Shown here in pieces: positions 18,811-59,617 of a stretch of 64,000 bases of DNA (position 1 is its first letter; the number at the start of each line of letters is the position of its first letter). The stretch comes from Phialocephala subalpina (Eukaryota > Ascomycota > Leotiomycetes > Helotiales > Mollisiaceae): contig FJOG01000004.1 in NCBI GenBank assembly GCA_900073065.1, positions 1,670,712 through 1,734,711 on the forward strand. Direction: 5' to 3'. Both the position numbers and the translations under genes were made by a program. Under the pieces are notes generated by a model, which saw only the letters and a program-made list of their open reading frames with translations, was not told the DNA's origin and ran no database searches.

Positions 18811-20462
18811 GATCCTCCGATTCGGGTTTCACGCGCCGCAAAAGAAAGTCAATGCGAGCGTGTCCAAGGTGACATTTATGTTGTTTAGATGTGCATCGTG
18901 AGAGGGAAGATATGGCACAGAGTATACAGCTTCAAGAAAACATTGTACAGGTCGTCTATTGAGAGCTTCTTTCGGAAATTGAGTGCGGCCTCAAGGTGTC
19001 GTCTTTGTCCACAGTTTGGCGAGCTTGTAACCTTAACCTACGGCGATTGTTGCTAGCCTGTCACTCTGCATTACACCACATAAACTCTGCACCCTTCATC
19101 TCATCTCAACATCACCGATAATTATCTTCAGACGATGGGTACTAGGAGGAGACTCGACAAAACCCGTGTTGCCTTGTCTGTAGACAAGCTATGGCGACTT
19201 CTTACTTCTTACTGGATGTCCAGAGCTTCTTCGCATCCATTGACACGTGACTCCGAAGGCACCTCGACGGATAGTTTACTTCTCCTCAGGAAGGAAAGAC
19301 ATTCATGACGCTTGCGGAGAAAAATATTGTAAGGAATGTACAGAGAATGGGCACTGCTGCCTGTATATGGTTGTTCGTTTCTGCAAGCTCTGGTTTATGC
19401 GCACTCTGTCTCCCATCTTGCTGCAACCATCTTCAGTACATCTGTTATTCTTGTCCAGACTCCAACCCAGTCTAAATCCATTTCATGTTGAAGCCATATC
19501 ATCTCGCAGACACACTCAAGAAGGCATCAGTCGGTCGGTCTCAAAAGTCGTGAATTGGATAGTTCTTTCAGGTAAGATTACAAAAAAATTCGTTACTCGA
19601 GATTTGGTCGAATGACCGTCCTCAAGAAAGCTCTACTGTAGTCGAGAGAATGTCTGTCTTGGAACCACGCCTTCTGTTTGAAAGCGATGCAAACTTTCCG
19701 ATGTACGAGTTTACAATGTAACCTCATGATCTTCTTCACTCTTCCTGAAAAGCTTGGCTTCGGCGCGAAAATGTCAGGCTCTAGTAGACCATGATGTCCG
19801 CATCGGGTGTTTAATGACATCCTGCATATCAGTGAGCAGTGGTATCCAACTCACTACTTTCCCGATGTCACATACTGAAAAAGAGTGATGTGAAGTAGAT
19901 TCAGGGCCTCCAGAGACTAGTTGATGTTTGCGATAAGTCGTCGGCTCAGATCAGAAAAGAAACACAATGGACTTCATAACGGCGTGGAAGAAGTCGAAAT
20001 CCTTTTCTTTGGGAAGGTTCGATGTACAAATGTACAATGCTACGAAGTAGAGAGCGATCAATTCAGCACACGGCTGCGACGGCAGCTCATCATTTCTACA
20101 TTCAGTTGGTCATTGAAACGCGCTCAATCGCGATTCGCGACTCACGCGTAGTCACTCCACCATCTCAAACCTCAGAAGTACCATCTGAAAAGATAAGAAG
20201 TAAATTGTTATGTACAAAATAGTATGTTCTAAAATAAACAGCCAAGTGGCTCACATCTGAGACCTCACAATCAGATGAAACAGCAAGTCGTCGCGAAAGT
20301 CTAAAACCAAGATCTTCACTCTTCCCCACAATCACCACGACTGCCTAATCATCCATGATCTCCCCGGTTATCAGATGTAAATGAAACATCATAAAGCCAG
20401 CTGCGTTATTTTTGTTACGCTCCACCATGCGTTGCCGGCACACACTGCTTTCATTTCTGCGC
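18811..20462. other. Intergenic
   Basis: About 1.65 kb without a supported gene between the DapB start and the polygalacturonase 3' end. The longest frame (19247-19615 +, 122 codons) has no motif. Confidence 0.5.
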
Positions 20463-22453
20463 TTATGAGGGGCAACCTGTGCTTGGGAAGTTGCAAGAGG
20501 AAGTCTCTCCGCCTCCGGTGATAGAGACATCAGTGAAAGTGAAGTCTGAGCAAGAATCACTACCGCAAAGGATGTAGTAATTGTACGCATCTGATGTTGC
20601 AGTTCCGGAGATATTTTCGAAAGATACACCTAGAGTTGGGACATCAGCAATTGCCCATCAAAACATGTCTGGGGGGAGTAGGAGAGGGGTTTATCCTCTT
20701 TCTACATACCTGATATAGTAACACCATTAGTTGGGTCACCAGTAGCCCCGCCATTGAGATAGTCTTGTTGGACATCGATGCCATAGTCGGAGATCTCGGA
20801 AAGGACGATGTTCTTGTAGACAATATTCTCAATGGTTCCGGTGGTGTCGGCGTTGGACTTGATTCTGCATCCATTCTCACTGTTGGAGACCGTTGAGTCG
20901 GAAAAGGTGACGCCCGAGACGACGTTGTTGCTCTTTCCTCCTACGGAGCCAATGCTCAATCCACTGCAAGCAAGGTCAGTCAATGTTCCATCCATATGCG
21001 AACCTTTACTTACTGTCCTCCGGAGCAAGTCATGCCGGTAATTGTGAGGTTGGTGCCGGATGTAACGGCGACGCAGTCATCCTGGTTCATGACAACGGTA
21101 TTCGACAAAACGACGTTGTCGCTTGAAGAGAAATCGAATCCATCCGAGTTGTGAGCAGCGGCCTTGCCATCACTAGCCGAGTTGGCGGCGTCACCAGCAG
21201 AGTTGTTGAGCGTCAGGCCAGCGATCGTCAAACCATCACATCCAGTCACGTCGAAGCAGTGAGTGGGCCAGTTTTGGATATACAGATTCTGGATGACACC
21301 ATTGATCATCTTGTCCAGGACAATGAAATGGTCAGGCTTGTCGGTTCCACCATTGGATCCCTCTCCGTCCCAGTACGCCTGTCCATTACCGTCGATCACA
21401 GCACCATCGGCCCCAGTGATTGTAATGTCGGTACCAGCGATTTCGATGGGGTTGAAATCGGAGTCCTCAGTGTAACCGAAGGTAGTTTCACCTGCAAATG
21501 TGACGCTGGATCCATCTTGAAGACCGGTGAGGTCGATCATGGAGGATGCTGGAGCGCTGATGTTCTCGAGAACGACTATAGATGAATTAGTATGCTATTT
21601 GAAGTATGATTTGGGAGTTGAGGAGCTGAGGAGCTAAGGAGCCGAGAGGAGCCGAGTCCGCAGTACTCGCGAAGAGCTCGGTTCTCCATATCTCTTCAAA
21701 TAAAGGGCGCATTCTCACGTACTGTTTGTGCAGGCGGCAACGACTGAGGTAATTTGGGCGTATTCGGTCGCCGTGCAGGAAGCTGGAGCAGATCCGACGG
21801 CCTAGAATCATGTTGTCAGTACAATTTTTTTGGGTTTCAGATTCCCAGAGTTCTGAAGTCGGAGAACGCGTCTCTTGAGAGGAGAGAATTTTTGAAACAG
21901 CCTCTTTGCAGATTTGGAGACTTACAACAGTAGTAGCAGCTACAGAGGCAACCGAGGTTGGAGCCGGAGCAGCAGACGAAGTAGCAGACGAAGAAGCAGC
22001 AGAGGCTACGCTGGACGCTGCAACTTTCGAGGAAGAAGCTTTCGTCAATGTCGAAGTGGCTTTGGGAGAAGACGAAGAAGTCGAAACCTTTAATTGAGCG
22101 ATTGAGGTCGTATTTAAGTAGGTTGGCACCTCAGTCGCGACACCAGACCCACCAATTCCAGTTCCAGTTCCAGTTCCAGTTCCAGTTCCAGTGGCCTTGG
22201 CCGATGTTTGTAAAGTGGTGGCTATATTGAGACATGAACAAGCACTGGAAAGTTTCTTGGGCTTGCTTGAGCATGCAGTAGCCCAAGTGGGCAAATCTGT
22301 AGTCGCTGTAGATGAAGCAGTGGTATATGTCGCGCAGAAAGGAGAAGCAGAAGCGGCTGAAGCAGTCATGGCGAAGGCGCAGGCATCGTTGTCTGGGTTA
22401 TCGCAAGCAAAAGCAAAAGGAGCAAGAACTCCAAGTAAAATGAATGAACGCAT
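20463..22453 (-). CDS. Secreted endopolygalacturonase (GH28) with Cys/Ser-Thr-rich N-terminal extension
   Basis: Hydrolyses alpha-1,4 bonds of homogalacturonan in plant cell walls. Five exons (22453-21926, 21801-21723, 21575-21014, 20963-20710, 20629-20463) join to 529 residues. Signal peptide is [16 protein letters not shown]. Residues about 17-75 hold seven Cys, ending SSACSCL. About 85-178 is a Thr/Gly then Ser/Ala-rich linker, with a TG dipeptide run encoded by a 6-bp repeat. The catalytic parallel beta-helix starts near 185. All GH28 active-site motifs are present: NSDGFD, NQDDC, GHGLSIGS (restored exactly by splicing exons 3 and 4) and CRIK. Typical fungal endo-PGs are about 360-380 residues, so the first 180 residues are extra. 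Introns are 124, 147, 50 and 80 bp. Confidence 0.93.
22155..22192. repeat. 6-bp tandem repeat (GTTCCA)n in polygalacturonase linker
   Basis: About six copies of GTTCCA on the + strand, encoding alternating Thr-Gly in the linker. Likely length-variable. Confidence 0.9.
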
Positions 22454-24298
22454 GATGCCCAGCACTTCGTGTTCAATGAAAAAACAAAAAAGAATGTGCG
22501 AAAGAACGTCAAGAATTGTTGCTGCCAAACGGAACGAATCTCACCTGAGGCCTTTGATCTATATAGGAGGCTCCATCAGATAAGATTTGACCTACTCTTC
22601 CACGTTGATGAGATTGCAGGAGGTGATGGATGACTTGAGGGGCGAAGAGAGTACCATAAACGTCATTTAATCTATATTATGGGGATACTTCAGCGGCATA
22701 TGCCTCGAAAAGAATGAGGTGAGATTGAGGTTGAATAGACGGCAGGGTCGAGAACAGTCTCGGGGGCGTCTAACTAAGTAACTGCGCCTGGGAAAAGAGG
22801 GAACGACCCGGAAGATGGCTCAGGACCAGCAGTCTCGGAAGTCAGCCGAAGATTTGGAAGGGAACTTGACCGAATGAGGGAGTCAAGGGGTCCAAAAATG
22901 ACCTAGTGTCTGAAGGACATTGACAGAGAGGCGGGACGACGCCACTTATCAGGACCCCGCATTTCGTGGCGTTGAAGTGGCTTCTTAGTACGAAGCTTGG
23001 AAGGTCTTGGGAAGCTTACCTCGACCTTTTGTCTCCCAGAATAGCACGTTAATCGGTTCCCATCATTTCCATTGACAAGTCCAAAAGTATCTCACGCCTA
23101 GCATCTTGGCTTCTTGGACATCAATCAACGACTCGGTAGCCAAGGCCTCGATATGAAGCATCTCTTGAATGTTTTCGGACCCCTTGCGCTATGTTTCACA
23201 TACCTGGTTTGAGCACTCTCGCTTGGAAAAACGAGTGGAGTGACTTGCGTGGCAGCGGGACTTCTCGCGAATTGTTTCCCCTGCTGGCGCTGAGCCTCAT
23301 AAATTTAGACGTTACAGATCTTCGCGACGAACTTTACTTCAAACAGAATCTTCAGGAAACCTTCCCGCTTCGGTGCCGATATCGGGTGGATCTTGGATTC
23401 AAGGTGGGATGAGTTTCATTGGCTCAGTGCGACTTCACATGAACTCGGAGAATCGAAGAAACAAACCGCAATGTCAGCCTCAAAGCAGCTTACATCCTTC
23501 AACATGTCGTCAAACTCGCTGCAACTTTCAAGAAACAATATTTCGAGTCATCATCGTGCCCAATCCACTTCTTTCATGCCTCGAAATATTTTCGGTCGGC
23601 ATATCCCAAAACATGGAAGCAGATCCTGACAGACCAATCATCTGATGTCCACCAGGTTCCTCTCAAGTTTCCCAACAACAAACGTTTCGGAGATCTGGAC
23701 CCAACCACCGGTCACCAACCACAAAGACCGTTTGATCCTCGAGCTGATCGTTGCACAAGAATAAACGCCGCACCCGTTAGCGAAACTCATCGGCTACAGT
23801 ATCCTCCACAATGCCCTAGGGAAGTATGATGTGCACGAAAGATGTGCCGCATCGTGGATTTTTTCCTGCAATGATCTTACGTGGCGTTTTATCGAAGGCG
23901 ATCAGTCTGAATTCTATGCACGCATTCTTTTTTTATCCTCAAAACGTCCTGACCAGATGTTCGGCCCAAGCTGGGACAAAACATCAAACTCAGCATAGAC
24001 GTTCCATCGTGGTAGGGCTTGACGTGTGCTAGTCCTTGGCGGTAGTTGCTGTCGAGGAACTGTGGGGATATTGAGGCAAAAGGTAGACTTTGTATGGAGG
24101 TGGCTGGGAAGCTTGGTTGTTCGCCAATGTGCATATAAGGATCGTGTGTATCTACTTCAAAGCACCATCTGGAAATCACCCCATCATCTTCATCATCTTC
24201 ATCCATTACATTCTTCTTCGGCCGGTCCGTTTTATCTTGTACATTCTACCCCCATTAAAACATTTTTTGCACATCTTCAATCCTTTTCAACCGCCAAT
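22454..24298. other. Intergenic between divergent secreted-protein genes
   Basis: About 1.85 kb without a supported gene. It holds the promoters of the polygalacturonase (-) and the GPI-type protein (+). A TATA-like CATATAAGG lies near 24131, about 165 bases before the 24299 start codon. A CATCTT-rich leader follows. Confidence 0.45.
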
Positions 24299-26748: not shown

Positions 26749-29371
26749 TTACCAAAGGCTACAGCGTACTCTCTCACACCTAGAGGCACTCTGCGCAATC
26801 GAAACAGCGCCCTTGTAAGAAGTAGGGAAGAAGTTCTCCGTCTTCGTGTCGTTTTGCTCCTTCGAGATCGGTACCTTCCATACACCGACTCGCTCCCACA
26901 ATCCGCGATCTCGTGCATGCTTCATCAATATCAACCCATTATAACTCCAATGCACCCTCTTCTTCGTCTTTGAGCCTTTGCTGTAACTCTCCTTGGCAAT
27001 CAATAGCAAGAGTAACCCCCTCCTGGCCTCTTCTGACGTAGGATAGAAGTCCAGAGCTCCATAGATGTATATTCCGTTAGGATGGAGTTTGCAGATCCAG
27101 CGCGACTTGCCAGCTTTAATGCTCTCGTGCAAAGTTATAGGCTGCCCGAGATAGGTCATTTCGATGAGTTGGCCCCGCAACGTTACGTGGGCAGAACTGA
27201 CAGGCCCAAATCGATCATTGCCAATGGGGTATGCCACCATTTGAAGCGCTTCAGCGTACATCGTTGCTGGATTCCTGTGCACTCTGTTTGATAGTTCCGA
27301 AGTTGGACCCGGTTGGCCAGAGTCAAGGCTTGGTACGTATGACTTGTGGGGATAAGCAATGCGTGAAGCCTATGACCACTAGATGTCAATAACGTTAAGA
27401 GGCTAGCGTGAGAACCCTAAAGGACCCTAAAGGTTAGGTGTGGCTTACCGATGGAGCTACGTATTCAATTGGCCTGGAACAGCTGTACGACGCTTCCAAA
27501 GTAAGTTTTGAGGCGCGTTGTTCTTGAACATGCCAACTACATACGGAGATTCCGGAATAAAGTGATGAGACTACAGAGTATTCCAGGCTCCTAGTACGCT
27601 GTAGTCACGCTATCTCACCACCAAGACACCCCTAAGCACGCTGTATATCTAGACTGTCAACCTTAAAAGCCTTCCTGGAGATCTTTAGTTGCTCCAGCGT
27701 CTGTGTAGCCTATACAGTCTCGGCGCTCCCTGTTCGCACTTTATCTTAGGCACTATTCCTTGCGGTCGCTTTATACCGTTTCGGCTGATAGGTGTTAACC
27801 CCCTGGAAATACAAGGTATCCATTCGCTTACAGTCCTCTTCTTAAGCGCCTTATGGCGACCTCGTTACCCTGAGAACGCTATTTCAGGGGACGATACCCT
27901 GTAGTCTCATCACTTTATACCGGAATCTCCGTACTCGCCTGCGCCAAAATTTCCTCTGTATCTGACGGGCCAATGCCGAGATCCTCAGAAGAATGTCGGA
28001 ACCTGAGGGGAAGGTAAGACTAGTGTATTTGCAGAGCATGAATCACCAGAATTTGTATATTTCAACGCCAGCATCATGGTCTTGGAGTGTGCAACCTGTG
28101 AGACGATTGTACCAAGCTTTGAGGTATAATCTATTGCCAAAGCCGCGGGAGCCTGGTGTGCACTGACAAGCTACTCGACATCTGTACTCCCATATAAATT
28201 CGCTGTCTGTATAGTGTACCATGCGAGATGAGAGCAATTGGTCCTGTAGATCCCAAAACCAGGACAAGTCGTACTTTACTGGTCTGAAGGTGCCGCAGAC
28301 ATTACCATGGGATTTTCTGAGGAGACGTACCTGCACAGCGTAGGAACCATATCTATGGTAAATGGTCACATTGTTGTACATGTTCGGATCAGGAAACAGT
28401 CCGGAATCACCGATCCCGTTCTCAGCACGAGCGCCAATGACGAACCGGGCTTGGCGAATATCGATTCGTATTGCCTGATGTTGTTCGCACGATCGGCCTC
28501 GTCCCCTTGAACCACGCAAAGAGACCCAATCCACAAGTATCGAATGCCTAGGCCTCAGGTAATACATACGGTATCTCGGAAGATTGGGTGCGGCAAGCCA
28601 AATGAGTGGATGCCGTCGATGTGGTCAGAGAGGTTTTCCGCAGTTGTCCTGAGAGCACGCGGCCACTTAGGTGAGTGGCTCAGGACGACATAGGCTCCAT
28701 TGTCCTCACGAGTCTCGTACAATCGAAGCGTGGGCGACTTTAGTGTTCCAACGTCAATAACTCTGGGAGGCAACGGTTGTAATTGCGGACCACATCGTGG
28801 TAGGTTTTGAAAACATTCCCAGAACCAACTCTGAATCATGGTGGCATGCATAATGCTCCCGTCTTCCATGAAGGCTCGGTCGATACCAACATGAGGCAAC
28901 AAGTATGCAGCGTCGAGAGATGAATAGAGCTCGGTGGTGAATGGAGACTTCCATGGAAAGAACGGCATGCTGGAACTGTTGATCTGCTCCGGGAGTCGAC
29001 GATGGACGTACGTCATGAATGAGTTCTGAAGGTAGATATAGGAATGTACCAGATTTGGAAAGACATCAACCTCTCCTGTGATCCTAACGATAGCTCGCCA
29101 TCGAAGATGGTACATATCGCATGGAATTTGGGCCGCATAGTGGAGCAAGGAGTTTATGGACCCCTCTTTCTGACCCTGATCGATCGGCAGATCTCGCACC
29201 CGACATTCTGGAGGCTATTGGAGGATGTAGAAGATGGCGAAGTCCAGAAGACCTGGGAGATTCAGGGGACCTAGCAGAAGAAGTCGAGCCGGTTGGCGCT
29301 TGTGTGGGAGATGCGTTCTCCAATTCGACGCGTGGAATATGTTCGTCGTCTGTAGGCAGGTTGGGTTTCAA
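26749..29371 (-). pseudogene. HET (heterokaryon incompatibility) domain gene, multiply broken and split by a MITE
   Basis: HET proteins trigger cell death after fusion of unlike fungal strains. Pieces in order: a GCEIC motif near 29200; a long frame 29199-28555 with YVVLSH and TTAENLSDHI, ending at TGA (28557-28555) where relatives have Arg in ITRGLGIRYLWID. The same frame continues past the stop as RYLWIGSLCVVQ, then slips near 28460 into ARFVIGARAENG and on to 28043. The frame recovers near 27950 (GNFGAGEY), where the element 27931-27544 is inserted. Beyond it come VVGMFKNNAPQNLLW, a slip, YVAPS, a 70-bp intron (27448-27379), W-S-stop (TAG 27372-27370 for the second Trp) and an open C-terminal frame to 26749. 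Several independent lesions make it a clear pseudogene. The original start is uncertain; an ATG at 29371 is the best candidate. Confidence 0.85.
27544..27931. mobile_element. 388-bp MITE with 33-bp terminal inverted repeats, TA target duplication
   Basis: Left end 27544-27576 and right end 27899-27931 are inverted repeats of 33 bp with one mismatch (position 13, A versus T). Both start CGGAGATTCCGG at the outer edge. TA flanks each side (27542-27543 and 27932-27933). Removing the element with one TA joins the HET codons for GAGEY to VVGMF in frame, which independently confirms the insertion boundaries. The interior has no transposase frame. TA duplication fits the Tc1/mariner/pogo superfamily. 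I do not recognise the terminal sequence. Confidence 0.92.
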
Positions 29372-43453: not shown

Positions 43454-44152
43454 ATGCCTCCAATCGATAGCAACTCGTCGCACAGCTTTGCGCAACAGTC
43501 TACATCACCTAAAAGTGATATTAGGGTCCCCCAGAGCCAAGTCAAACCGGAGGTCGCGTTCACAGAACACGTCGAAGACGTCCGCAACCGCGAGGACTAC
43601 TCAACGCAACTCGAAAGCGACGCGCCCACCCAACCACGAGTCAACCTCCCCAGCCAAGATAACTACGGTACAACTACTACAGAGAAAAATCGAGAGGATT
43701 ATTTGGAGGATGGAGAGATTGACGACGTCAATATCAATCGATTAGACGGGACTGATATGGGCGAAATGGACCTGGATGATTTGCTGGAGTTGGAGGAAGA
43801 CGAGGCTGACGATATCGATGTCTATGGTCAACTGGACTCTGTGTTGCCAAAGGACCTTGTTTATCAATCCTGCGACAAGATACGAGAGTCAGGTCCTCAA
43901 CGTGCAGCAGAGGCTGGTGGATTGCGCACATCGCCACTCTTCTCCCAAGCGACTCCGACCTACCCCCCCGGCCTCTCGCCTCCTGATCCATGGGTTGAAA
44001 GACTTGATGTTTGGCTTACGGGTCCAGAGTATCTGCTATATGAACATCCACAGTTGAAGAAGTGGAGGGTTAAGAGGCCTTCAAGACTGAGGACATGCTG
44101 GATGTTGAAGGTGGAGGAGAGCAATGGCGAGGATGAGCGAGCAGTTCTCTGA
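43454..44152 (+). CDS. Acidic hypothetical protein
   Basis: Open frame of 232 residues starting at an ATG preceded by a typical AAAACACA leader. Residues 1-135 are hydrophilic with many Asp/Glu (EDGEIDDVNINRLDG, MDLDDLLELEEDEADDIDV). The later part has SPPDPWVERLDVWLTGP and EYLLYEHPQLKKWR. After about 44060 the best coding-like text moves to other frames (EAFKTEDMLDVEGG, then MSEQFSEHGRDVVDGYERH up to about 44255), so the 3' end may be frameshifted or contain an unrecognised intron. W/F spacing in the C-terminal part is loosely like the family at 46.5-59.6 kb, but I cannot claim homology. Confidence 0.5.
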   Translation: MPPIDSNSSHSFAQQSTSPKSDIRVPQSQVKPEVAFTEHVEDVRNREDYSTQLESDAPTQPRVNLPSQDNYGTTTTEKNREDYLEDGEIDDVNINRLDGTDMGEMDLDDLLELEEDEADDIDVYGQLDSVLPKDLVYQSCDKIRESGPQRAAEAGGLRTSPLFSQATPTYPPGLSPPDPWVERLDVWLTGPEYLLYEHPQLKKWRVKRPSRLRTCWMLKVEESNGEDERAVL

Positions 44153-44910: not shown

Positions 44911-45621
44911 ATGTCCACTGAAAGGGTCGAGACGGCTAAAGAGGTGAGTGTGGAAACTGGAACTAGTCACGCAGTAATGGCGGGAACGACAAGTAATGAA
45001 TGGGACATCATGATAGGAATGGTACGTTCTGCCCACATCTTTCAAAAAATGGAGAGAAGCTGATAACCGAACAGGAAAATTTGACACCGGAGATGGCCGC
45101 AGGGACAAATTCCGTTACACATACGTCTAGCGACGAAGTTTCTCCTCATCTAATCGACGCAGGCTATATATCAGGAAAGCCCAACGAGGACGAAGTTGTA
45201 GATCATCTTGATTTGGACCAAGCTATTCGCCGAAACTTTCTCGACTCAGGATTCATCGACGAAAGCTTTTTCGACGGAGAACCATTCGACGAACAGGATT
45301 CTGATGATACCATCCGCCAGAGAATTCTTGACTCGAGATACTTCGACGAAAGCTACTTTCAGGATGAACTCGATGATCATTTAGAATCAGAGTCCGGAAC
45401 TGTCTCAGAGTAGGTTCACTGACCCCCCCGATTCTTCAGTTGCTGACAATAGATTTAGGAACCGAATTGAAATGACTTGGCTCGAGAGTGTGACGCCAGA
45501 TAAAACAAGATCTTCTCGAGAATCGATGGAGCGTAATGAAATACGCGCTAAGTGCATCAAGGAAGGCAATCTGCCGCCACAATTTTCAGTCCATATCTAT
45601 GGGCCGAAAGCCGCCAAATGA
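44911..45621 (+). CDS. Hypothetical acidic protein with internal repeat
   Basis: Exons 44911-44943, 45075-45409 and 45459-45621 join in frame to 176 residues (introns 131 and 49 bp). Exon 2 encodes an imperfect duplication: IRRNFLDSGFIDESFFDGE followed about 30 residues on by IRQRILDSRYFDESYFQDE. The protein is strongly acidic. The annotated stop follows GPKAAK. However, an overlapping frame continues to 45811 with good coding character (PPNEKQQFEADFLFPSLPVWE, NIEINEALIEEGFMKKR), so the true C-terminus may be longer through a frameshift or an unrecognised intron near 45610. No family is recognised. Confidence 0.45.
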
Positions 45622-46560: not shown

Positions 46561-48515
46561 TGATCTACTACCCTTGCGCGCCTCATACCAAGGCTCCGTC
46601 CTATCGTGGCGGTGATCAAGATACTCCGCGGATAAGTCTCTACTTGCGCGTCATTGTGCATGGTATCTGGAACTGATACTGATCGACATACAGACGTATC
46701 TATCCTCCGAACACCAGATCTTGGGTTGGGGTGTATCAAGGCGCTCAACATGGATCCTCCCCTCCCCCTCCTCCTCCCAATGGGGGCCCTGGCTACGTCG
46801 ATGGTAGTCAATTTCATAACTGGTACCAACAATTAGGAGCCGGATTTTGTGGAAGTCAGCCCGCACAAGACGTTGACGGGGACATCCAGCCACCCCCACC
46901 CCCCCTTCTCTGGTAAACTCTAAATTGTTAGACTTTACTTAGGGAAGAGGCGGCAGTTGGAAGAATAACCCGACGCTCGATAACACAAGGTTGTTGAGAA
47001 GAGATAAACAGCTGGTAAGTAAGTATAGACCATTTGTTTTAATACATCCAAAGAATCATGCTAATAATTTGCTACTCGGCTATTGGAAGAGAAGATCTAT
47101 ATCCCTCGATGTATTCGCTAAGCCCGCAGCTACAGGAAGGCAGAGTTGGGTTATCTAACCACCGATATCCGTCTGTTCCCAGTATACCAAAGAAGCATAA
47201 CAGTGGATACTTTCTAGTATACGGAGCAAATGTTTCCTCCGGATTCTTGGACGCTCCTTCTTCCTTCTATCCCGGCATCATCATGAATACGCAGACCTTT
47301 GCGTCGAATACCAACAAAGACTTCTTGTAGCTTTTAACATCCTCCACACAGATCAACTTTTCAAATGGATCTCATGGAGTCGAGTATAATTTCCAGAATC
47401 TCAATAGACAGGACTTACCCCATGTATCGAGTTATGGTCAGTATACCGAATCGGTGACACCCACCCGATGGCCTTTGCAACATCCTGCGTTCTCTAACGC
47501 TTTCGTTCCACGACCCGGCCTCCAGCCACCGCACACCTTTGGCCCAATTCATCGGGATTTATCTTCCAACACACGCGACACGTTACCTTACAAAGTTTTC
47601 GAAGACCAGTCCTTCACCCCAAATGTGCAGCGTTATGCAGCGTTATGATCAACATTTTAGCCACGACTAAGCCCGTAACTCCGCTCCGTAACTCGGTATC
47701 GATCCCTACCAACCATTCGAAACTACTCCAAGACACACTCCACCTATGTCGCACATAGAATCATCTCAGAAGCGTCACACTCCGAAGACACCTACTTGTA
47801 CACCGACCCGACCAATACCCACATCTGCCAGAATTAATTCGGACAGAAGGAGCAGACATCCTACGACTCCTACCCCTACAAAGATCGGAAAGTGCAGTTC
47901 TGGAGTCAGGTTGAGTACACCTCGGACCCGCGTCCAGAGCGTCCAGGCAAGAGAGCACTCCTCGCTCACGAGGTCCGGCTCCTGAAGAGATTCTTTCCTA
48001 TTGCCAAGCCATCTACTCCCCATTTGAGCACTAACGAAGAACTTGAGATATGGTTTGACTCTTGGGCAATTGTGAGCTACAACGAGGATCTCTACAAGTC
48101 CTGGGAACGCTTTCGCAATGAGAATTCTACAGCAGCAGAGAAATCCTTGTACGGCCAATCTGTCGACGAACATGAAGCAGCTGTCGCCAACTTTCCAATC
48201 GCTATGCGAGCTTGGAATAAACATAACAATGTCTCTGCTCGACATGATTCTAATCTTAAAGCTGCCCAAGAAGCCCAAATTGAAGAATGGGGGGAAACTG
48301 AAGAGGGGAAACGAGAGAAATGGAGACTGCACGGGCTCAATGCAAAGGACGCGGCGGAGGTGGCAACATGGCTAAAGCCTATGCGCGATCAAAGATTACA
48401 AGCTAAGCTGGTAAAGAACAAGTCTAGGATCACACAGAAGAGAGGAATGCTGAAGAGGTTGAGGAAGGAGATCAACATTGATTGGACTTTATTGGGACTG
48501 GTTAAAGCTCGTTAG
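46561..48515 (+). pseudogene. Decayed member of the local L-x-H-E-x-R-L-L family
   Basis: From 47058 to 48515 one reading frame stays coding-like throughout but holds five premature stops: TAG 47328, TGA 47646, TAG 47658, TAA 47676 and TAA 47835. Each is one C-to-T step from CAG, CGA, CAG, CAA and CAA. The N-terminal part is rich in Tyr, Asn, Ser, Gln and Pro, like a prion-like low-complexity region (SYGQYTESVTPTRWP, SSFYPGIIMNTQTF). The part after 47892 is open for 207 codons and carries the family module (LLAHEVRLLKRFFPIAKPS ... WFDSW ... YKSWERFRNEN ... DEHEAAVANF), then a long charged helix. Poly-Pro text upstream (46731-46916) belongs to the same frame, but the link is not resolved. The intact 3' part could still be expressed from an internal start. 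Confidence 0.65.
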
Positions 48516-49603
48516 TACTGAAGTTTTGCCATAGGTCATGAGGCTTGGATACCTTGGACAATTGGCACGGACTCATTTTCCTGAGTTGACTGTCTTTCAA
48601 GACAGATGGTGTTAGATTTCTAGACCCTAATTCATCAATGCAACGGAAAATCCCGCCTAGACACCCCGGCTTCAAAATGACTTGCAGTATTTTGACTGAA
48701 ATGCAATTTCGAAGACTTTGTCTTGAAACCCCTAATTTGTGAAGCCTTGCCCTGAGAAATCACTCGATGGAACCTTCAGAGGATTACCTCCTCATAGATG
48801 TTCTTTCATTGTGCGTAGGACTGTCACCCATATTGCGTTCATCCAAAAATCGGTGTGTATGCTAAGGGAAACCATGGCGAATAGTAATCGAGAAGCCCGT
48901 TGCTCCCTGGACCATCAATCCTCTTTCGAAAGTGTTTTTAATTTTAATAACGGCTTTTCATATAGAAATAGCCTTTATCTATCCAATTTAATTGGTATTG
49001 TATCACGAGTTGAGATAATAAAGTCTCCTCTACGTGACTCACGACTTTAAGTTCCTTGACCTAAAGACATTGAGAGGCAAGATAAGTCAGGAATTATTAA
49101 CGGATATATGTATTTATATATATATACAATTCTTAATTTACACACAATTTGTTTTCCTCGCTTTTGTCCAAACCTTGTGCAATTACAACATGGAGATAAA
49201 AAAGACGTTCTACGTTGCATCATCTTCACAAACTTTCGAGACCAATTCACCCGCACTTTTCAACTCCCCACGAAGCATGAATAGAGGCCACACGAAATGA
49301 AAGCCAAATCTTCCACAGGATAACACCTTTCTTATTCTGATATCAATAAGATGACCGAACCACAAGCCAATACGTTGAGTCCAGGGATGATATTTAGGAC
49401 TACTACTTGCAGAATCTAGAGGATTCCCAGCAAAAGATCGGGCAGGCAGCTTCCAAAACTGATCAGTCTCGATATCCAACTGAAGTTGAGAGTTCACAAT
49501 CGGGCAACACCTGCGGAGAAAAGGGACACGCTCGGGGTCAGGGTAAGTCATATTGCTCAAATACTTCGACCAGTGGATGCTAATTACTTAAGCTCTCGGC
49601 ACC
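48516..49603. other. Intergenic
   Basis: AT-rich, with no secure gene. A TATATATATA run lies near 49115-49125. The minus frame 49560-49210 has no motif. Confidence 0.5.
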
Positions 49604-50356
49604 ATGTCAGAACCCTTGACTTTTCAAGATCCAGCTGCCCACCCGACCCAGCCATGGCCAGTCCCAGCCAATCTCGATACTGTTGCGAATGATCCCGTCC
49701 CGCGTATGCATCTTCCAGAGAACCCACATCCTGTCTCAGCAAACGCTCAAGGCCCTTTACTTTATCACTACATGCCAAACGAAGGACACACTTCTATTCC
49801 CTCAGCTCCGAACAAAGATCCGAGCAAACAATCGGCCGCGGTCATGCAAGCATCAAGCATCGGGTGGGAGAACAGTATATCAGATGCGGATTATGCCTTT
49901 GCAAATCTCAATGCCGAAGACACTCAATATCTCTCAATCTTCGCCGAAACTAGAATCCTACCGCTAAATCTCCAAAACATTTCGTACACTTCCACGGGCG
50001 ATAGCGATCCACTAAGTCTATCAGACATTCCGCAAACCTTACAAAAGTCTGAAATACCACAAAAGCCCGAGCCAAGAAAACCCCTCGATCACGAAATAAG
50101 ACTCCTTGGTGCGTTCTACACAGTACTCAACCCTCTCGATAGCATTCCTGGAACGGACACAGATCTTCAAAACTGGTGGGGGTCAAAGAAGCAAGATGAG
50201 GATATCTGGACACAGTGGAACAACTTTGTTGAGAAAAGAGAGACGGAGGACGAAAAGACGCTGAGGTATGAAGCTATCGCTAATCATCAGATGCTGAATG
50301 CAGATTATCGCAGAGAAGTTCGAGTCTTAGAGATAATGAGAACGGCAGGGGCATAG
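49604..50356 (+). CDS. Local family protein with L-x-H-E-x-R-L-L C-terminal module, intact
   Basis: Single-exon gene of 250 residues. Residues 1-155 are Pro/Asn/Ser-rich and probably disordered (MSEPLTFQDPAAHPTQPWP). From about 158 comes the module shared with 46561-48515, 55467-56549 and 57359-59617: PRKPLDHEIRLLGAFYTVLNP, then an acidic loop, LQNWWGSKK, DIWTQWNNFVEKRETEDEKT and EAIANHQMLNADYRREV. The shared positions are the H-E-[IVF]-R-L-L helix, paired W-x2-[WF] elements and a later A-x-x-x-H motif. No signal peptide or membrane helix. I do not recognise the module from any named family. Function unknown. Confidence 0.65.
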   Translation: MSEPLTFQDPAAHPTQPWPVPANLDTVANDPVPRMHLPENPHPVSANAQGPLLYHYMPNEGHTSIPSAPNKDPSKQSAAVMQASSIGWENSISDADYAFANLNAEDTQYLSIFAETRILPLNLQNISYTSTGDSDPLSLSDIPQTLQKSEIPQKPEPRKPLDHEIRLLGAFYTVLNPLDSIPGTDTDLQNWWGSKKQDEDIWTQWNNFVEKRETEDEKTLRYEAIANHQMLNADYRREVRVLEIMRTAGA

Positions 50357-51377
50357 ATTGGATTCTCTGTCACGGATGGGGAGGTGGGTATTTTCGAGCT
50401 TCACAGCAATTGCTCGAAGGACGAAATCGCGGTGAGATGTCTGGAAAAGATGCAAATCACAGTCTTGGGACTAGATTGGCTATTATTCTCAGGATAACAT
50501 ATTCAGGAAGGCAGAGATTACAAATAAAAAGCATTACATTTTTTGAATTATAAATCAACTTTGTTCTCCTATCAGACATCCAGTCGGTAGTTTTGTGGGA
50601 GCTTTCTTCATGGCTTGGACAGAGCCTGACATATACCTCTTCGTAGACTGGTATAAGTTGTAAATCAACATCGTGTACCTGTAGCAAATTTCTATTGGCT
50701 TTCAAAGCAACAACCTCCGTTGATTTGCTTGCCATACCCGTATGCGTACGAAGGCAGGGTTCGTCGCCAGTTAAGCGAGACTGCCCCTCGATCCTGGATT
50801 GAGATTTTGAGAATTCTATACATACGTTGGTGTGGATTTTTATCAATAAGTCGAGTAAAGCCACATGAGGAGAATAGGATCTCTTCGTTGTATCATCGGA
50901 ACTTCTTTCACAACTCACACTGCTGCCATCACGTCATTGACTGGAATGCCAAAATATTCCACGTGACTTTGTTTGGATCAAGCCTATGTTGTTTGCCGGT
51001 GCTGAAATCAGAAGATGCTGCAAGGGACTCCGAGAAGGCTGAACTTGTAAGGTAAACTCTCAGCCTCAGTGGATAATTCTGAAATCTGTCTTGGAAGATG
51101 GGAAGAGAGCCCCTCGGGGGTGCGGGGAAAATCCGGTGCGAGTGACTTCCTATTGGCTAAAACTGTCCATTGTCCCCGGAAAAGGAAGCTTTCGCCGATT
51201 GTCGATTGCGGTCATGTACGAACGCGATAAGAGTCGTCCTAAGTCCTGACTGGATGGTAACTGGGAGGAGCATGTGTCTCCAATCTAAGTCTATTTAACA
51301 TGGTAGCAGACTCACAGAAACCGGACCAACGATGACCCCTTCCCTCCAAAGTATAACCTTCTGTCGCTTGAGCCAAC
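50357..51377. other. Intergenic
   Basis: About 1.0 kb. A minus-strand frame 50918-50457 (153 codons) has no motif and no splice context. The rest is upstream region of the oxygenase. Confidence 0.45.
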
Positions 51378-52823
51378 ATGTCTACAACCATGACTACCAT
51401 TGAAGCCCTTGACGAGAACTACTGGTGTGGGAATAACAAAATCAACGGCAGTTTTGGCACGAAGACTGTTCTCTCGGAAGATTCTATTGTCGGAGATTTT
51501 GACACGATCCCACTTATCGACGTGGCCGGTATTTTCAGCCCACAGATCTCGGAACGCGAAAAGGTCGCGGCACAGCTTTACGATGCGTGTACGAGAGTTG
51601 GATTCTTCTATATCCAGAATCATGGCATTCCACAGGAGTTTGTTGACGCCGTTTTCGATTGTGGGAAAGAGTTCTTCGATTTGTCCTTCGATGACAAGAT
51701 GGAGGTGTACATTAATAATACACCACACTATCGTGGATTTACTCCACTAGGAGGAGCTGGGTCACCCGGTAGTGATGGGCAAGGCAGTGAGTAGCTTTTT
51801 GTTGCTGGTTTTGGTTACACGGTCTCGCTCGGCTCTTAATTCGTCATCAACCTAGTCATTCGGCAAGATGCTAACCAAAGATCAGACATGAACGAGGCTT
51901 TCGACTGGGGACACGATAGCAAGCTCAACGATGACCCCAATGATAAGTTCGTCGACCCGCATATGCGTGGCGAAAACCCATGGCCTCGACAATTGCCGAA
52001 ATTCGAAGCCGTACTATCAGACTACTACAAGAGGATGCGAGCATTCGGGAGAATTCTTGCACGAAACGTTGCTTTGTCGCTTGGCCTGGAGGAATCCTAT
52101 TTTGAACCACTCTTGACACATCCAGGATGCAGTGCCTTGGTCGCTCACTATCCGCCGCAAGAGATTGGGTCCAGAAAGTTCGGCCTCGACGGGCACACCG
52201 ATGCAGAATGTGAGTTACAAGGACGTAGTATTTCGGTGACTGTTGCTGATACGACGCTCAAAGTCTTCACAATTTTAGCAACTGGGGATGTTCGTGCTTT
52301 GGAAGTCCTCAATAAAACTGGTCATTGGGTTTCTGCGCCTCCAAGAAAGGGCTGTTATATAGTCAATGTCGGGGACCAATTGCAAACTTGTAAGTGCTTC
52401 TACCTAGAAAATGAGCCTGACGGTCGTTAACCTTTTAGGGACAAATGGATTGTATGTTTCAACGATGCATCGTGTCCTCAACTACTCGGGACAGGAGCGA
52501 TACTCAGTTCCGTTCTTCTTCAGCGCCAACTTTGAAACAATCATCAAGGCATGTGGATTTCTGCAACTCCAGTACCAAATTGATAGAGTTGTCAGAACTG
52601 ATGCAATGAATTGAAGCCAATTCCAGAGATGATAAAAGATAGTATGGAGGTCTCATATCCCCTGTTGACGGCAGGACAGGTCAGTATTTGCTTGCCCCTC
52701 CATTAGACTCCTATTCTAAAAACGGCCCTGCAGATGTACAAGAACACCATGACTTCGTTCCACCGAATTGCAGAGCGAAACCCTACACTTATCAAGTACT
52801 ACAAGAAGCCTATTGAGGCATGA
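51378..52823 (+). CDS. 2-oxoglutarate/Fe(II)-dependent oxygenase (isopenicillin-N-synthase-like)
   Basis: Soluble dioxygenase using 2-oxoglutarate, O2 and Fe(II); substrate unknown. Six exons (51378-51786, 51886-52209, 52264-52389, 52439-52548, 52617-52679, 52734-52823) join to 373 residues. The DIOX_N part has TIPLIDVAGIF and RVGFFYIQNHGIP near 45-85. NMNEAFDWGHD is created by splicing exons 1 and 2. The double-stranded beta-helix core carries iron ligands His and Asp in DGHTDAE, the distal His in TMHRVLNY and the 2-oxoglutarate Arg in RYSVPFF. The fourth intron (52549-52616) has a GC donor in an AAG/GCATGT context. Using it restores the expected C-terminal helices (PIPEMIKDSMEVSYPLLTAG, then YKNTMTSFHRIAERN). 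The 54-bp second intron is a multiple of three and contains no stop. Confidence 0.9.
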
Positions 52824-54116
52824 CACAAAGACAGAGGAAGGGAGTAGCGGTGAAATCTTTTTCTCTCACTGTGAATACAGTCTTGTATCTATACCTGACG
52901 GCTGCTTGATGCTTGAATTGATGTCAGGACCCAGGGTATTTACATCTCCAGTCGCCTTTATCGAATGACTGTTATAATTACCTGAATAAGTTGGAATAGT
53001 AAAAAATATTTGCATTTGAATAGCTCAGGAGCATTGAAACTGGTGATACTTGAACACGTTAAGGATTTCAAATTTTGATATTCTCCCGAAGTACCCGCCT
53101 CCAGTATTTTATTCAACACAGAATCTGTATGATTTAATCCGAGCCCCATTGTAACCCTCGACGAGACATCGCATTTAATGGTTTACGCTTCCTCCCCAAA
53201 TTTTCATCTCTTGTCTATCTGGCATTTGAGAAAATGCCATGAAACTAGGTAAAGAGAGCGGCCCAAGACACTTTCTCCGCACAATATTATTGGCAACTGC
53301 CCTCCTTTTCCACTTACAACGTGTCCCCTAACCGCTTGATAGTCACCCTACTCGTCTCAATCATCTCGCCATCGAGGTGATTCCACTTACAATATTAATT
53401 GGGAAAACTTATGCTTCCTTGTGGAGACGGTCCAACTTGCTAATGTTTAGCATTCCAATGACTAAAACTGGAAATTGTAGAATTGAGTTCAAAGCAGATT
53501 TGGCAGCTAATGTTCAACGTATAAATGTATCAACCACCTACTCATTTGACATAATCTATAATCGGAGGTCATGTGCCCAGGGTGTTTTCCTCGAAGCTTT
53601 TCACCGATTTGAACACCTCACCGCCCAGCTTGTATTAGCGCCAGCTGCCATCCATACGCAACAAATCACGACTTGACACTTAAAAATTGTAGACCTCGTC
53701 CAAACAGAACTTGCCTTTCGTTACAGCTCGCAAGCTGCAAAAGTTTTGGTAATTCCTTCTTGATCGCACCATCGATTAACACATTGTGATATTGCCTTTG
53801 CCAAGCAAGGAGAGCTACTACTTTCTGCTATTGATTGCGTAGACTTGAATTCGGACAGATTTTGAACGATCTCCAAGAAAAAGGTACGTCCCCTGGTTAT
53901 CAGTAACGCGCAATCTTCTTCTACGCGTCGAGAGTCACTGGTCAATGGGTCTGAATATTTCGGGGAGCAAATACAAGAGGACAGAAAGTTTATGTTTTAC
54001 TCCCAGGAATCTATCTGACGAGCGCGCCTGAGATATTTTGAGGAAGATCGAAACGAAAGCAAACTTCCACACACCATTAAACGGAGTCTAAGATCTGCGG
54101 CAGAAGAGCCACCGAA
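52824..54116. other. Intergenic
   Basis: About 1.3 kb, AT-rich. Short frames only (53377-53676 + has no motif). Nothing recognisable. Confidence 0.5.
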
Positions 54117-55342
54117 ATGTCTTCCTTGCACCCAGACTTCGATTTTGAGGAGTACAATACCTCGTTGTCGCAACTGTCGCAACCTGCTCAGATGAGTGTC
54201 TCTGGCGCTATCTGGCTTGCCAAAACCTGGATACAGGTGCCTTGGTCTACAACCTACTGGACGGCATTAACGGCGATGATGACGATAGTAACGGCGAGGG
54301 CGATGGATCCGACCGTTTCAGCGTCAGTCCAGAAGAAATTCAAGCTACAGGTAAGCATCACAATCACCCAATGGCTTCAGGCGTCTTCATATCTAAGCGC
54401 TAGCAGATACTATGGAGGAAGACGAATTAGGAACCCCTAGAAGCCTTCGAAGCCCTGAGGTCATTGATTTAGACGAAGTACAGGGCCTTCCAAGGAATGA
54501 CAACCAGGCTATGGACCAGAGACTGCACAAGCGGAAAAGGAACACTCTGTCTAGAGTAGACGATAGAGAATCTCAGGCGAAAAAGAAGGCCCCTATGACG
54601 AGAGAAGATAACTCCAGGGATGTTGCAAGCCAACGCACAGAGAAGAATTCAGTCATCCCGAGCTTGTCTATAGATTCGAGCTAGGTGTCTGACAATATCC
54701 TCCAAACAAGTTCGCACACAATTTCTGAACCTACCGCAGCTCGTCGCCGGTCTGCAAGTGTTCATCTTGTCAGAAATCAACTTCCTTCCCGAGATTTGGA
54801 AACCCCCGGCTTCGACAACATATCTTCTTCTTTCTCAGCCGACTCTCCTTCCATAGATATAGCTTCAGAGCTCGGTGTTGTAAATAAACTTTTCAAATCT
54901 CAAATGAACCGAGGTGAGTGGTTCGATCTTGTTAAATAAAGTGGAATTACCCTAACAATATGTAGCCACCGGCCAAGATGAAAGGTCGGTTTATTAGGGC
55001 CAGCTCTCTGGCAGTTTGCGTATTCATAGAACATCTGCCAATCTGGAAGCTCCTGCTCGGACTCAACACCTACGAAACGTGTATCTTGAGAATTCTCAAT
55101 CGAACTTCTCACATCTTGCACCCGCGAATGCAAACGCTGGATAATGGGGCAGCGACTGTCCCCCAGTCCGCAACGAGCTTCAAATTGGCATGACACCTTT
55201 CTTTCAGCCTATCAATCGTAGTGATAACGGCTTCAATCTGGGCTACCTGCCACTGATTGACAACGGAACTTATTTTTTCCCAAATACTTTTATGAGTAGG
55301 GAACCTATCGGAACAAGGGAACAAGAACTTAACCGAGCTTAA
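54117..55342 (+). pseudogene. Decayed acidic/low-complexity protein gene with in-frame nonsense codons
   Basis: The ATG at 54117 gives MSSLHPDFDFEEYNTSLSQ. A short intron (about 41 bp, near 54193-54236) would lead to YNLLDGINGDDDDSNGEGDG, and a GTAAGC...GCAG intron (about 54351-54406) to EEDELGTPRSLRSPEVIDLDE. From 54412 the frame is coding-like to 55342 across one further intron (about 54914-54965). It is broken by TAG at 54682, TAG at 54995 and TAA at 55142, all possible C-to-T products of Gln codons. Text between stops is not random (TGQDERSVY, LRIHRTSANLEAPARTQHL, FFQPINRSDNGFNLGYLPL, GTYFFPNTFMSREP). No domain is recognised. I infer a recently silenced gene. Readthrough or mis-assembly is less likely. 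Confidence 0.55.
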
Positions 55343-55466
55343 CCCGATTAGGCAACCAAGTGCAAGAGAGGCCTATAAAGGCTCTCTTACACCTGCAATC
55401 TCTTAGAATCTACACCTATTTGCAACAACATCAGAACAAGGGTATACTCTTAATAGGCCAACCCCT

Positions 55467-56549
55467 GTGAAACCAAAAGAACCTCAAGGGATGTTTATGG
55501 AGCATGACGATCGCGAGAGCTCGCTCTCAATTTCACGTCCTGCCCGACAACAACAACAACAACAACGAGTAAACCTAGACTACGAAAGTGGGATGACTTC
55601 CACAGCTCCCACGAAGTCCAAGTCCAGACATATCATCAATCCAGCAAACTCGAATGCGCCTAGGTACCTATAAGCCCCTGGCGCTTCTTAGGACGCTCGA
55701 ATGCCTATCTCGAACCCATACCCCCCGACAACTTCCGCCCCAGGGCATGGGAGCCCTGAACCACGATCCCCTCCTGTCTCGATGGAGCCCCCTGTCTCTA
55801 CGGCTGGCAATAATACCACAAACAGTACTCCAAAGAAGAGGAGGTTCCTAGGTGCCACACACGCAGGCATGAGAAAACTTCTCCCTNNNNNNNNNNNNNN
55901 NNNNNNNNNNNNNNNNNNNNNNNNNNNNNNNNNNNNNNNNNNNNNNNNNNNNNNNNNNNNNNNNNNNNNNNNNNNNNNNNNNNNNNNNNNNNNNNNNNNN
56001 NNNNNNNNNNNNNNNNNNNNNNNNNNNNNNNNNNNNNNNNNNNNNNNNNNNNNNNNNNNNNNNNNNNNNNNNNNNNNNNNNNNNNNNNNNNNNNNNNNNN
56101 NNNNNNNNNNNNNNNNNNNNNNNNNNNNNNNNNNNNNNNNNNNNNNNNNNNNNNNNNNNNNNNNNNNNNNNNNNNNNNNNNNNNNNNNNNNNNNNNNNNN
56201 NNNNNNNNNNNNNNNNNNNNNTCGTTTCCATCAACAGCTCAACCCCTAAACCGAGATGCCCCAAGATGACAATGCTTGGAGGAACTTTCTGGCTTTAAAC
56301 GGTCAGGGATGGGTGGAGTTCCTGCAAAAGTATGAGACCCCTCAGGAGCGAAATGCAAGGCAAGCATTGTTGGACCAACATAAGGCTGCTATTATTCGCT
56401 TTAAAAAGGGCGAAGAAACTCGTGGGTGAGAGAGACAGCGTGAAGGTGTAGCTCGTGGTGAAGCAAAGATCGAAGCTATGACCCAGGCAAGTCTCCAAAA
56501 ATGAAGGGACAATCCTGATATGTCTTGGAGAGATCTCACGCAAGGATAG
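55467..56549 (+). pseudogene. Decayed copy of the 57359-59617 gene, interrupted by assembly gap
   Basis: Upstream of the gap a poly-Gln piece (55489 on; ARQQQQQQRVNLDY) and a Pro/Ser-rich piece ending STPKKRRFLG resemble the region before the module in the 57.4-kb gene (RTPRKRKVLEA). After the gap the frame 56223-56549 aligns along its length with residues about 540-640 of that gene: FHQQLNP, AWRNFLALNGQGWVEFLQK, TPQERNARQALLDQHKAAI, KGEETRG, KIEAMTQASLQK and NPDMSWRDL. It has premature stops TAA 56247, TGA 56427 and TGA 56502. The last two sit where the intact gene has Arg or a similar residue, again C-to-T type. The final TAG at 56547 matches the normal end. Confidence 0.7.
55887..56221. 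other. Assembly gap (335 N)
   Basis: Run of 335 unknown bases inside the decayed family copy. A repeated family would explain why the assembler failed here. Confidence 0.99.
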
Positions 56550-57358
56550 TAACTGGATGGGGAAGATGGGTATCAATGTAGGACCTGGTAACAAATTTGG
56601 GATGCTGTGAAATCGCGGTCTGATGAGGATGCGAGGGAGGAGATAGAAATGGGGATTATTGAGAGGAGGACGGTATGGTGGTAAAATTGCCATGAATGTC
56701 TCTCATGTTGACGACTTACGAAGGTCTCTCTGGAATTCGAGATAACTTGGTTGGGAAGGCAGTTTGGCATCTACTCGACCTTTATAAATATGAAAACGTC
56801 CTGTATTACGTTAGATGTGCCTTCTGAGAAGTGAGACATACGGAGATACTACACAAACCTAATGAAGTAGTGCAATGGTATCTCATTGTGCGGATTGGCG
56901 ATTACGTTCCCCACTTTTTCCAGGACCACCCTCGATATCCCAATAATTATAAGGATAGCCCTAGCTTTGCGAAGAAAACGATTTTGAGTGCACAGCTCTC
57001 ATTAGACAAGACTACCTCAGGGAATTGAGATGCGCTATTGGCTGCCGCACCTTTTCCAGGCTGCTTGCGTCACAATCCACCCAGCGTTTGGCCATTACCA
57101 TCATGCAACATTACCAAGCGATTACCTTTGCTTGACCGCAGAACGCGCCTTGAGATACGAATCGGATACTCCCATCACATCGAGTCTACGCATTGATCTG
57201 CTGTTCTCTATCCTCCTTCCCAAGCACTAGATAGCAATTCAAATTGCGCCTGGACGATCTTGTGGAACATTATACTACTCTGCCTGAACTACCCCATTGC
57301 TCCCTAGAGAATCGATTCCTTGATCAAGATTAAGACTTTCGCACAATAGAGAGGCGCC
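56550..57358. other. Intergenic
   Basis: No gene. Short + frames at 56831-57028 and 57030-57230 have no motif. Promoter of the 57359 gene. Confidence 0.45.
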
Positions 57359-59617
57359 ATGGACCCTGCACGTTGGGAAGAGGCGGGCTCCGCTCATGTC
57401 GACTGGAATAGTGCTGTCCACGACGCCAACAAGTCGGAGGCTCATCCTAATATCAACAAAGCCTCAAAGACCCGCGCAAATCAACAAATTGAGTTGGAAT
57501 CTATTGCCGGCAGTGACAATTCAAACCCCTACGGTGGGCAAGCATTTGGTGAGCACAAGTCTGAAACTTATTTAGGAGATTCGGATTACTGACAAGGACT
57601 AGAGTCGATGCACAACAGCCGCAAAGCTTCGTACGAACCTATACCTGTCGCAAAAAGTCCCTACCACCTCTCAATTATGCGCACCAACCACCCCGATCTT
57701 GCCATAGAGCTCAGCGAATTCAATATACCCGAGTCTGGTCATCCATCCAGCTTACCCCACATGGACCCGACAGGACCGCAAAGCACACTTTACGTAGCCC
57801 AACTTGATGATATAGGCTTCGAAACGTCATTCCAGGAGGCATACTCAAGTCAGTGTTATTATCTACAATCTCCTATCAGATATATCCTAACTATTCATAG
57901 TGAACAGTGCGAGTAAACCTCGCATGGCATCTCACCCGCTGGGAATGGTGCCTGGCAGCTCTTATGATCCACAGCAGTCGATCCATATGGGAAAGCTGGA
58001 CGCTGGCTGGTATGAAAACTTGCCAACTCCAAGCTCCCAAAATCGTCATCCGATTCAAGAAGGTTATGGAGCATCTGGTGGGAATAATTCGAGAGAGAAG
58101 AACCATGAACGGTCAAGCGGCTGGTCTCCGAACAAGTTTGCCTCAAGCATTCATCCTTTTGAAGCCCACAACTATCCAAGGGAATGGAAGGTAGCCAGAC
58201 ACGGCTTTACTCATGGAAATGAACCTCAAAGTCTACCTTTATTAATGTCTCGAGACTTACAAGGACTTTCGGTGCCGGCCGAATCAAGTCGTAGTACGAC
58301 TCTTTCAGCATTCGCTCGTCCTGAAGAGGGAAACCCATCCTTTTTGAAGCCAGGCATGAAACGTAAGCCAATTTCTCTTGATGCAGAAGAGTCTCCCGAG
58401 CGTCAGAGATTGGACCCCAGCCCTACAGCAGCCATGGCTGCTCAAAGTATCGGGGCAGGCATCACAGGGGGAAAGAACACTTGGGACTCGGTACTAGAAG
58501 GTGAAGTTAAGGATAATGAGAAGCTGTATAAGGGCATTCTCTGGACCAACCACTGTCAGAGGCTAGGTATCATTTTGGAGTCTGCCAATCAGAAAGATAT
58601 TGACCTAGCCTCTGGTGCTGGAATCATGGTCCGCTGCGATGAGGCTATTGAAAAAGCCGAACGATGGATATTTGAGAGTGGGTTGGAATATCACCTTATC
58701 CTTTGGAAGGTTAACTGACCCCTTTGATAGACTCACCTGTGGCAGAGGCGAGAAGCGAGGAATCTCGAACGGAGAAGCCTCTACTAGCCCCTGGAGTCAG
58801 AGCCTATCTTGAACGCCCATTGCTGAGCCCCAAGAGAATCAAACTGGACTCCAATACCAGAACCCAGCTTAACACTCCTCAAATTTCGAGACTCACACCC
58901 CCCTACCGTTCGGGACCATCTCTCAACCACGTTACCCAGCACCTGGCTGAACTTGCTTATGACGACCCAATGGACTGCGAGTCTGACGGCGAAAATGAAT
59001 TGGCACCAGTCACCGACATTGAGTTTCGCAAGCCGTCAACCGTGGGTTTAGCCCTCCCTGCAGCAGCGAAAGCTCGATTGGCTGCTGCGGAAGCTCGGGG
59101 GAATCGCTTCACTGCCGCTAAATTTCTGGCTTCTTCCACCCAAACTTCACCTCACCTATCCAAAGCTAAGGAACAGTCATCGGCACCAGCCGTTCGCACT
59201 CCCAGAAAGCGCAAGGTCTTGGAAGCACAAGATCCAGGCCCAAGGAATTTCCTTGAGCACGAATTCAGACTTCTGCATGAGCTTCACCATCAACTGAAGC
59301 CAGGTGAGAGCAACCCTTCTGACCGACAAGGATGGAGCGATTTCCTGCTCGAGAACGGCCCTACTTGGAGGACTTTCCTCAGCAGGAATGAGGCACCACA
59401 AGAGACAGTAGCCAGGCATAAAGCAATTGCAGAACACAAAGCGGCTGTCGAATATTTCGAGAAGGGAGAGAAAGCTCGCGGGCGCCAAGCACATAGAGAG
59501 CGCCAACACGCGGCTACGGCTGCCAGTAAGGCGAAGCTCGATGCCATGACCGAGAAGAATCTGCAAAAGCGGGCAGAAAATCCGGATGTACCATGGAGAA
59601 ATCTGCGACAGGCATAG
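57359..59617 (+). CDS. Local family protein with L-x-H-E-x-R-L-L module, full-length intact member
   Basis: Best model: exons 57359-57548, 57603-57848, 57901-58500 and 58731-59617, giving 640 residues. The third intron acceptor (58730) has an ideal CTGAC branch site. Its donor is uncertain: GTGAAG at 58501 fits AAG/GTGA best; 58565 and 58613 also keep phase. Residues 1-480 are hydrophilic and probably disordered (Ser, Pro, Asn, Gly). Basic nuclear-signal-like runs are GMKRKPISL and RTPRKRKVL. An Ala-rich helix (LPAAAKARLAAAEARGNR) precedes the module at about 535-640: RNFLEHEFRLLHELHHQLKP, GWSDFLLENGPTWRTFLSRN, ARHKAIAEHKAAVEYFEKGE, then a basic helix and PDVPWRNLRQA. A nuclear or nucleic-acid-linked role is a guess from charge only. 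Confidence 0.7.

Follow-up and report, generated by a model that had tools for sequence, protein, structure and literature searches.

A lineage-restricted orphan protein family at one locus of Phialocephala subalpina, with good evidence of function for a single member

According to its genome paper, Phialocephala subalpina (Mollisiaceae, Helotiales) is a root endophyte with a published assembly of 69.7 Mb in 205 scaffolds, and 4,233 of its 20,173 proteins were called species-specific (PMC5148876); orphans are therefore common in this fungus. The closest described relatives of the family considered here are two deposited proteins. One, PAC_03900 of P. subalpina, is an uncharacterized protein of 699 amino acids, the deposited name of which states neither family nor function. 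The other, BDZ45DRAFT_752473 of Acephala macrosclerotiorum, is a hypothetical protein of 708 amino acids with no function given. Here, we analyzed a 64,000-nucleotide stretch of P. subalpina contig FJOG01000004.1 (the window), in which four loci on the + strand (copies A, B, C, and D) share a homologous C-terminal module, gene D being the same thing as PAC_03900. A model-generated note on the window (the original prediction) had proposed such a family, and similarity searches and shuffling bore it out. The family is real, fairly ordinary, and lineage-restricted, and D is the only copy with good evidence of function. Its features are as follows.

57359..59617, + strand: gene D (PAC_03900), 699 amino acids, identical to deposited protein P0001
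57359-57548, 57603-57848, 57901-58677, and 58731-59617, + strand: exons of D, with introns of 54, 52, and 53 nucleotides
57903..58676, + strand: exon 3 of D, a fast-changing chain with a single genome match and low model confidence
58970..58999, + strand: acidic motif MDCESDGENE (residues 485-494 of D), a candidate binding motif conserved in Acephala at 9 of 10 positions
59198..59215, + strand: basic stretch TPRKRK (residues 561-566 of D), a candidate nuclear localisation signal, residues 557-570 being 13/14 identical in Acephala
59228..59614, + strand: shared module of D (residues 571-699; AlphaFold), sharing 102 of 129 residues with Acephala
49604..50356, + strand: copy B, an open frame of 250 amino acids with its module at 50051-50353, C-terminally shorter than that of D
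47838..48515, + strand: copy A, an open frame of 225 amino acids that includes the module and a C-terminal extension of its own (phmmer, genome search)
55692..56549, + strand: copy C, broken, with an N-terminal-side part, 335 N's (55887-56221), and then the module

In gene D, consensus-like splice and branch sites sit where the reading frame has to change. The frame stayed open in 4 of the 16 splice-site combinations tried, and the first of these four was used as the model. The spliced product was identical to PAC_03900 over 699 residues, and the gene ends given by the original prediction were correct.

Homology among the four modules was assessed with phmmer against the six-frame translation of the window, with stops written as X. 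Using D as the query, we retrieved C (E-value 1.8e-25), B (1.8e-6), and A (0.0024); B retrieved A (9.1e-10) and D (5.2e-7), with C at only 0.17; and A retrieved B (1.1e-7), with weak links to D (0.042) and C (0.063). In the window, the copies thus form two pairs, C–D and A–B, linked chiefly via B–D. Shuffled sequences, the yardstick proposed at the outset, rarely or never reached the pairwise scores: 101 versus 28 ± 5 for B–D (0/300 as high), 109 versus 32 ± 6 for B–A (0/300), and 75 versus 36 ± 7 for A–D (1/300). Identity was 44–46% between C and D and 28–29% between A and B, and the duplications are therefore old. The 68.1 Mb genome (119 contigs), a version somewhat different from the published assembly, was also searched, the counts being lower bounds. 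D matched at least four places (4 candidates scored), with A at an E-value of 0.68 only; A matched at least two (4 candidates scored) and B at least three (3 candidates scored), all of them known family loci. The family locus is internal within a 2.48 Mb contig, and, within the reach of these searches, no copy was found at other places in the genome.

The order of signals described for the modules was confirmed with exceptions. A, B, and D all carry H-E-x-R-L-L, a Pro, W-x2-F, and a later H without variation, and the Acephala protein has R-F-L where these copies have R-L-L. In C, the first signal is not visible because it is hidden by the run of N's. The first Trp pair is W-x2-F in D and C only; it is W-x3-W in A, and in B a W-x2-W merges into the second pair. 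The conserved unit of D extends to the C-terminus, where A-M-T-[EQ]...N-P-D-x-x-W-R is common to D, C, and BDZ45DRAFT_752473, a feature absent from the original prediction.

Codon scores relative to base composition were highest in the right frame in all four modules (A, 0.104; B, 0.072; C, 0.084; D, 0.076), two intergenic controls scoring below zero. For exon 3 of D, the value was only just above zero (0.014). Divergence at the first, second, and third codon positions was 0.41/0.31/0.66 for D–C and 0.50/0.49/0.66 for A–B. As third positions are the most divergent in D–C, past constraint is visible in that pair and hardly in A–B.

A protein-database search with full-length D, in which the module was the scored region, returned matches for 2 of 70 candidates, namely D itself and BDZ45DRAFT_752473. 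The latter is a probable ortholog of D, judging from its similar length and layout and from the identity of its module (79%) and preceding stretch, although it is only 36% identical over residues 1–337 of D. No match was obtained when the query was D's final exon (0 of 4432 candidates) or an alignment of three open reading frames (0 of 7998 scored), searches in which the length window excluded proteins of 699 residues and included those of B's size; hence, B probably has no deposited protein. The protein-database search needs shared 5-residue words as well as a length window, and remote relatives could be missed. No significant match was found in Pfam, NCBIfam, PHROGs, or PDB, consistent with the predicted lack of a named domain; a high-scoring Pfam family had been named as the finding that would speak against the proposal. 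Sub-threshold rows were NtA for P0001 (D) in Pfam (E-value 0.22), YlbF/YmcA for A (E-value 0.027, 14.6 of 223 bits), and Mex67-type chains in PDB (E-values 0.13–0.6). With no known domain and no detected relatives outside Phialocephala and Acephala, the copies constitute an orphan family, lineage-restricted as had been proposed, and by the present results it does not stand out among the orphans of P. subalpina.

In the full-length AlphaFold model of D, the module comprises helices at residues 580–593, 603–612, 614–624, and 627–687, followed by a conserved tail, NPDxPWRxLRQA, and its 10-residue blocks have predicted local distance difference test (pLDDT) values of 71–94. When the module was modelled alone, the five models gave pLDDT values of 63 to 85 and a predicted template modelling score of 0.56. 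The rest of D is predicted to be a mostly unstructured chain of approximately 570 residues, 538 of the 699 residues having a pLDDT below 50, in agreement with the long, disordered N-terminus anticipated for this family. MDCESDGENE falls within this unstructured part. Within exon 3, a block at approximately residues 338–396 is short, partly helical, and moderately conserved (identity to Acephala, 27 of 53 aligned positions). Between D and the Acephala protein, identity amounts to 36% over residues 1–337 (117/328 aligned), 93% over residues 557–570 (13/14), and 79% over residues 571–699 (102/129); therefore, the conserved unit spans approximately residues 557–699. Rapid change, another claim of the original prediction, thus applies to D's N-terminal part but not to its module. 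By hydropathy, used with no dedicated predictor, neither D nor B nor the Acephala relative of D contains a stretch resembling a signal peptide or a membrane segment; the top 12-residue values in the first 51 residues were 0.06 (D), −0.02 (Acephala relative), and 0.20 (B).

The remaining copies are reduced to different degrees. Two copies had been called open and two decayed; D is indeed intact, B open, and C broken, and in A the last 225 codons are open while the sequence upstream carries no convincing coding signal. The module of B holds helices 1–2 and the start of helix 3 but stops short of that helix's second half and of the tail, and no D-type tail is present in any of the three frames just downstream. 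B also lacks the basic stretch of D, and the two are 28% identical over the module. The B frame scored 0.038 in its N-terminal part and 0.072 in the module, the other two frames being negative. Upstream of A, three stretches in 47058–47835 had negative coding scores, like the two intergenic controls, the tested frame still being the best of three in two of these stretches; 46561–46916 lay outside the scoring. In C, in-frame stops occur at 56247, 56427, and 56502, the end at 56547–56549 matches the place of D's stop, and TPKKRR, similar to TPRKRK, lies ahead of the N's. The N run in C may reflect a gap in the assembly: the published one was made from 454 paired-end data and is described as containing gaps (PMC5148876). 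Runs of N's occur twice in the window, at 13926–14530 (605 bases) and at the C position (335 bases), each within an apparent gene. A mild dinucleotide bias resembling repeat-induced point mutation (RIP) was observed at 47401–48000, immediately ahead of the A module and at its start, and counts in favor of a decay driven by genome defence; no such bias was found in the modules of A, B, or C or in the D gene. Across the window, only 2 of 64 1-kb bins were RIP-like by their dinucleotide indices (27001–28000 and 47001–48000). Most likely, A–C are old duplicates with losses in progress.

Our best explanation, to which we assign an even chance, is that D is one functional orphan gene accompanied by three old local duplicates and serves as an intracellular, perhaps nuclear, regulatory adaptor or scaffold. 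D would be intracellular and probably nuclear, with TPRKRK directing it to the nucleus. The module, with its predicted short helices packed on a long charged helix and its conserved W-R tail, could dock on one constant partner, which may be chromatin or a protein complex, and the chain might carry short motifs for recruitment by binding, for example MDC[ED]SDGENE. Of the roles raised by the original prediction, a regulatory one is the reading we favor. The extra copies would have arisen by local duplication, then diverged, and would now be undergoing loss, B possibly still yielding a module-only protein. Several points weigh against this explanation. Helical models built on three or four sequences may look confident yet be wrong; the comparison between genera involves one protein; a codon score restricted to synonymous choice fails to separate the frames, for example in A, B, and exon 3 of D; and short basic stretches are common.

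A stricter form of the same explanation, nested within it so that the two likelihoods do not add up to one, is that D is the sole copy of importance, the other three being non-functional relics and the B frame accidental. We regard this form as having slightly under an even chance: the alignment of three open reading frames recovered neither A nor B among deposited proteins, B has no tail, and A has no convincing N-terminal part, but B keeps 250 open codons in a frame that scores positively while the other two score negatively.

A reading of the module as a highly diverged DNA-bending domain of HMG-box type, which would make D an architectural or transcription factor, is unlikely. The HMG box (PF00505) has the same three-helix order and, with one of the two models, ranked best in the structural comparison; however, the module is longer, and the second model does not favor the HMG box. 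HMMER listed no HMG_box up to an E-value of 10 in P0001 (D), P0002 (the second deposited protein), A, or B, and a profile comparison with the HMG box gave a probability of 0.1, versus 99.2 for the positive control. The predicted structural likeness to HMG boxes is weak and without sequence support. We also think it improbable that the module represents a new or extremely diverged nuclear domain of Phialocephala–Acephala root endophytes, having an HMG-like L-shaped fold with no detectable sequence kinship, at a locus that expanded into module-only competitors. For B in particular, a role as a natural module-only competitor, or dominant-negative partner, of D would fit its helices 1–2 and helix 3 start and its lack of D's basic stretch and tail, but the low B–D identity over the module may preclude common partners, and such a role is quite improbable.

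Between 40 and 62 kb, the only flanking repeats were two direct pairs and one inverted pair of 20–24 nucleotides at 81–85% identity, with no arrays, and the spacer at 52600–54100 had a single genome match. The selfish or conflict role raised by the original prediction, in which an incompatibility-type locus would diversify its copies rapidly, is very unlikely: the clustered, lineage-restricted, partly broken copies, the fast-changing N-terminal part, and the RIP-like bias near A are in its favor, but the family occupies, within the reach of the genome searches, a single internal locus, the module is conserved between genera, A, B, and D have no Pfam domain, the role has no positive support because neither signal-peptide-like stretches nor mobile-element flanks were found, and lineage restriction alone is no pointer to conflict since approximately one-fifth of the species' proteins were called species-specific.

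The analysis delimits a small uncharacterised domain, residues 557–699 of PAC_03900, with a sharp conservation contrast to the remainder of the protein and with natural truncated copies. The locus therefore offers a tractable example of the gain and loss of function in lineage-restricted proteins of abundant root endophytes.

Other genes and frames surround the family. A 2OG-Fe(II) oxygenase gene (51372–52430, + strand; DIOX_N, E-value 2.3e-24; 2OG-FeII_Oxy, E-value 1.9e-9) lies between the A–B and C–D pairs, and a possible orphan gene remnant (54117–54965, + strand) directly precedes C, with an apparent frame change near 54190, an in-frame TAG at 54682–54684, and consensus-like introns around. 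Two acidic low-complexity open frames on the + strand, 43454–44152 and 45000–45413, have coding-type codon scores and no Pfam family above cut-off, the former having a sub-threshold Fungal_virus_P2_C row (E-value 0.025, 13.9 of 26 bits). Each has one genome match, besides a 27-residue fragment of 43454–44152 on contig C51 (67%, one stop). On the − strand, 16111–18828 may, by eye, be a dipeptidyl-peptidase-like gene, and 21010–22540 may, by the same kind of resemblance, be a polygalacturonase-like gene with a cysteine-rich secreted-type frame nearby.
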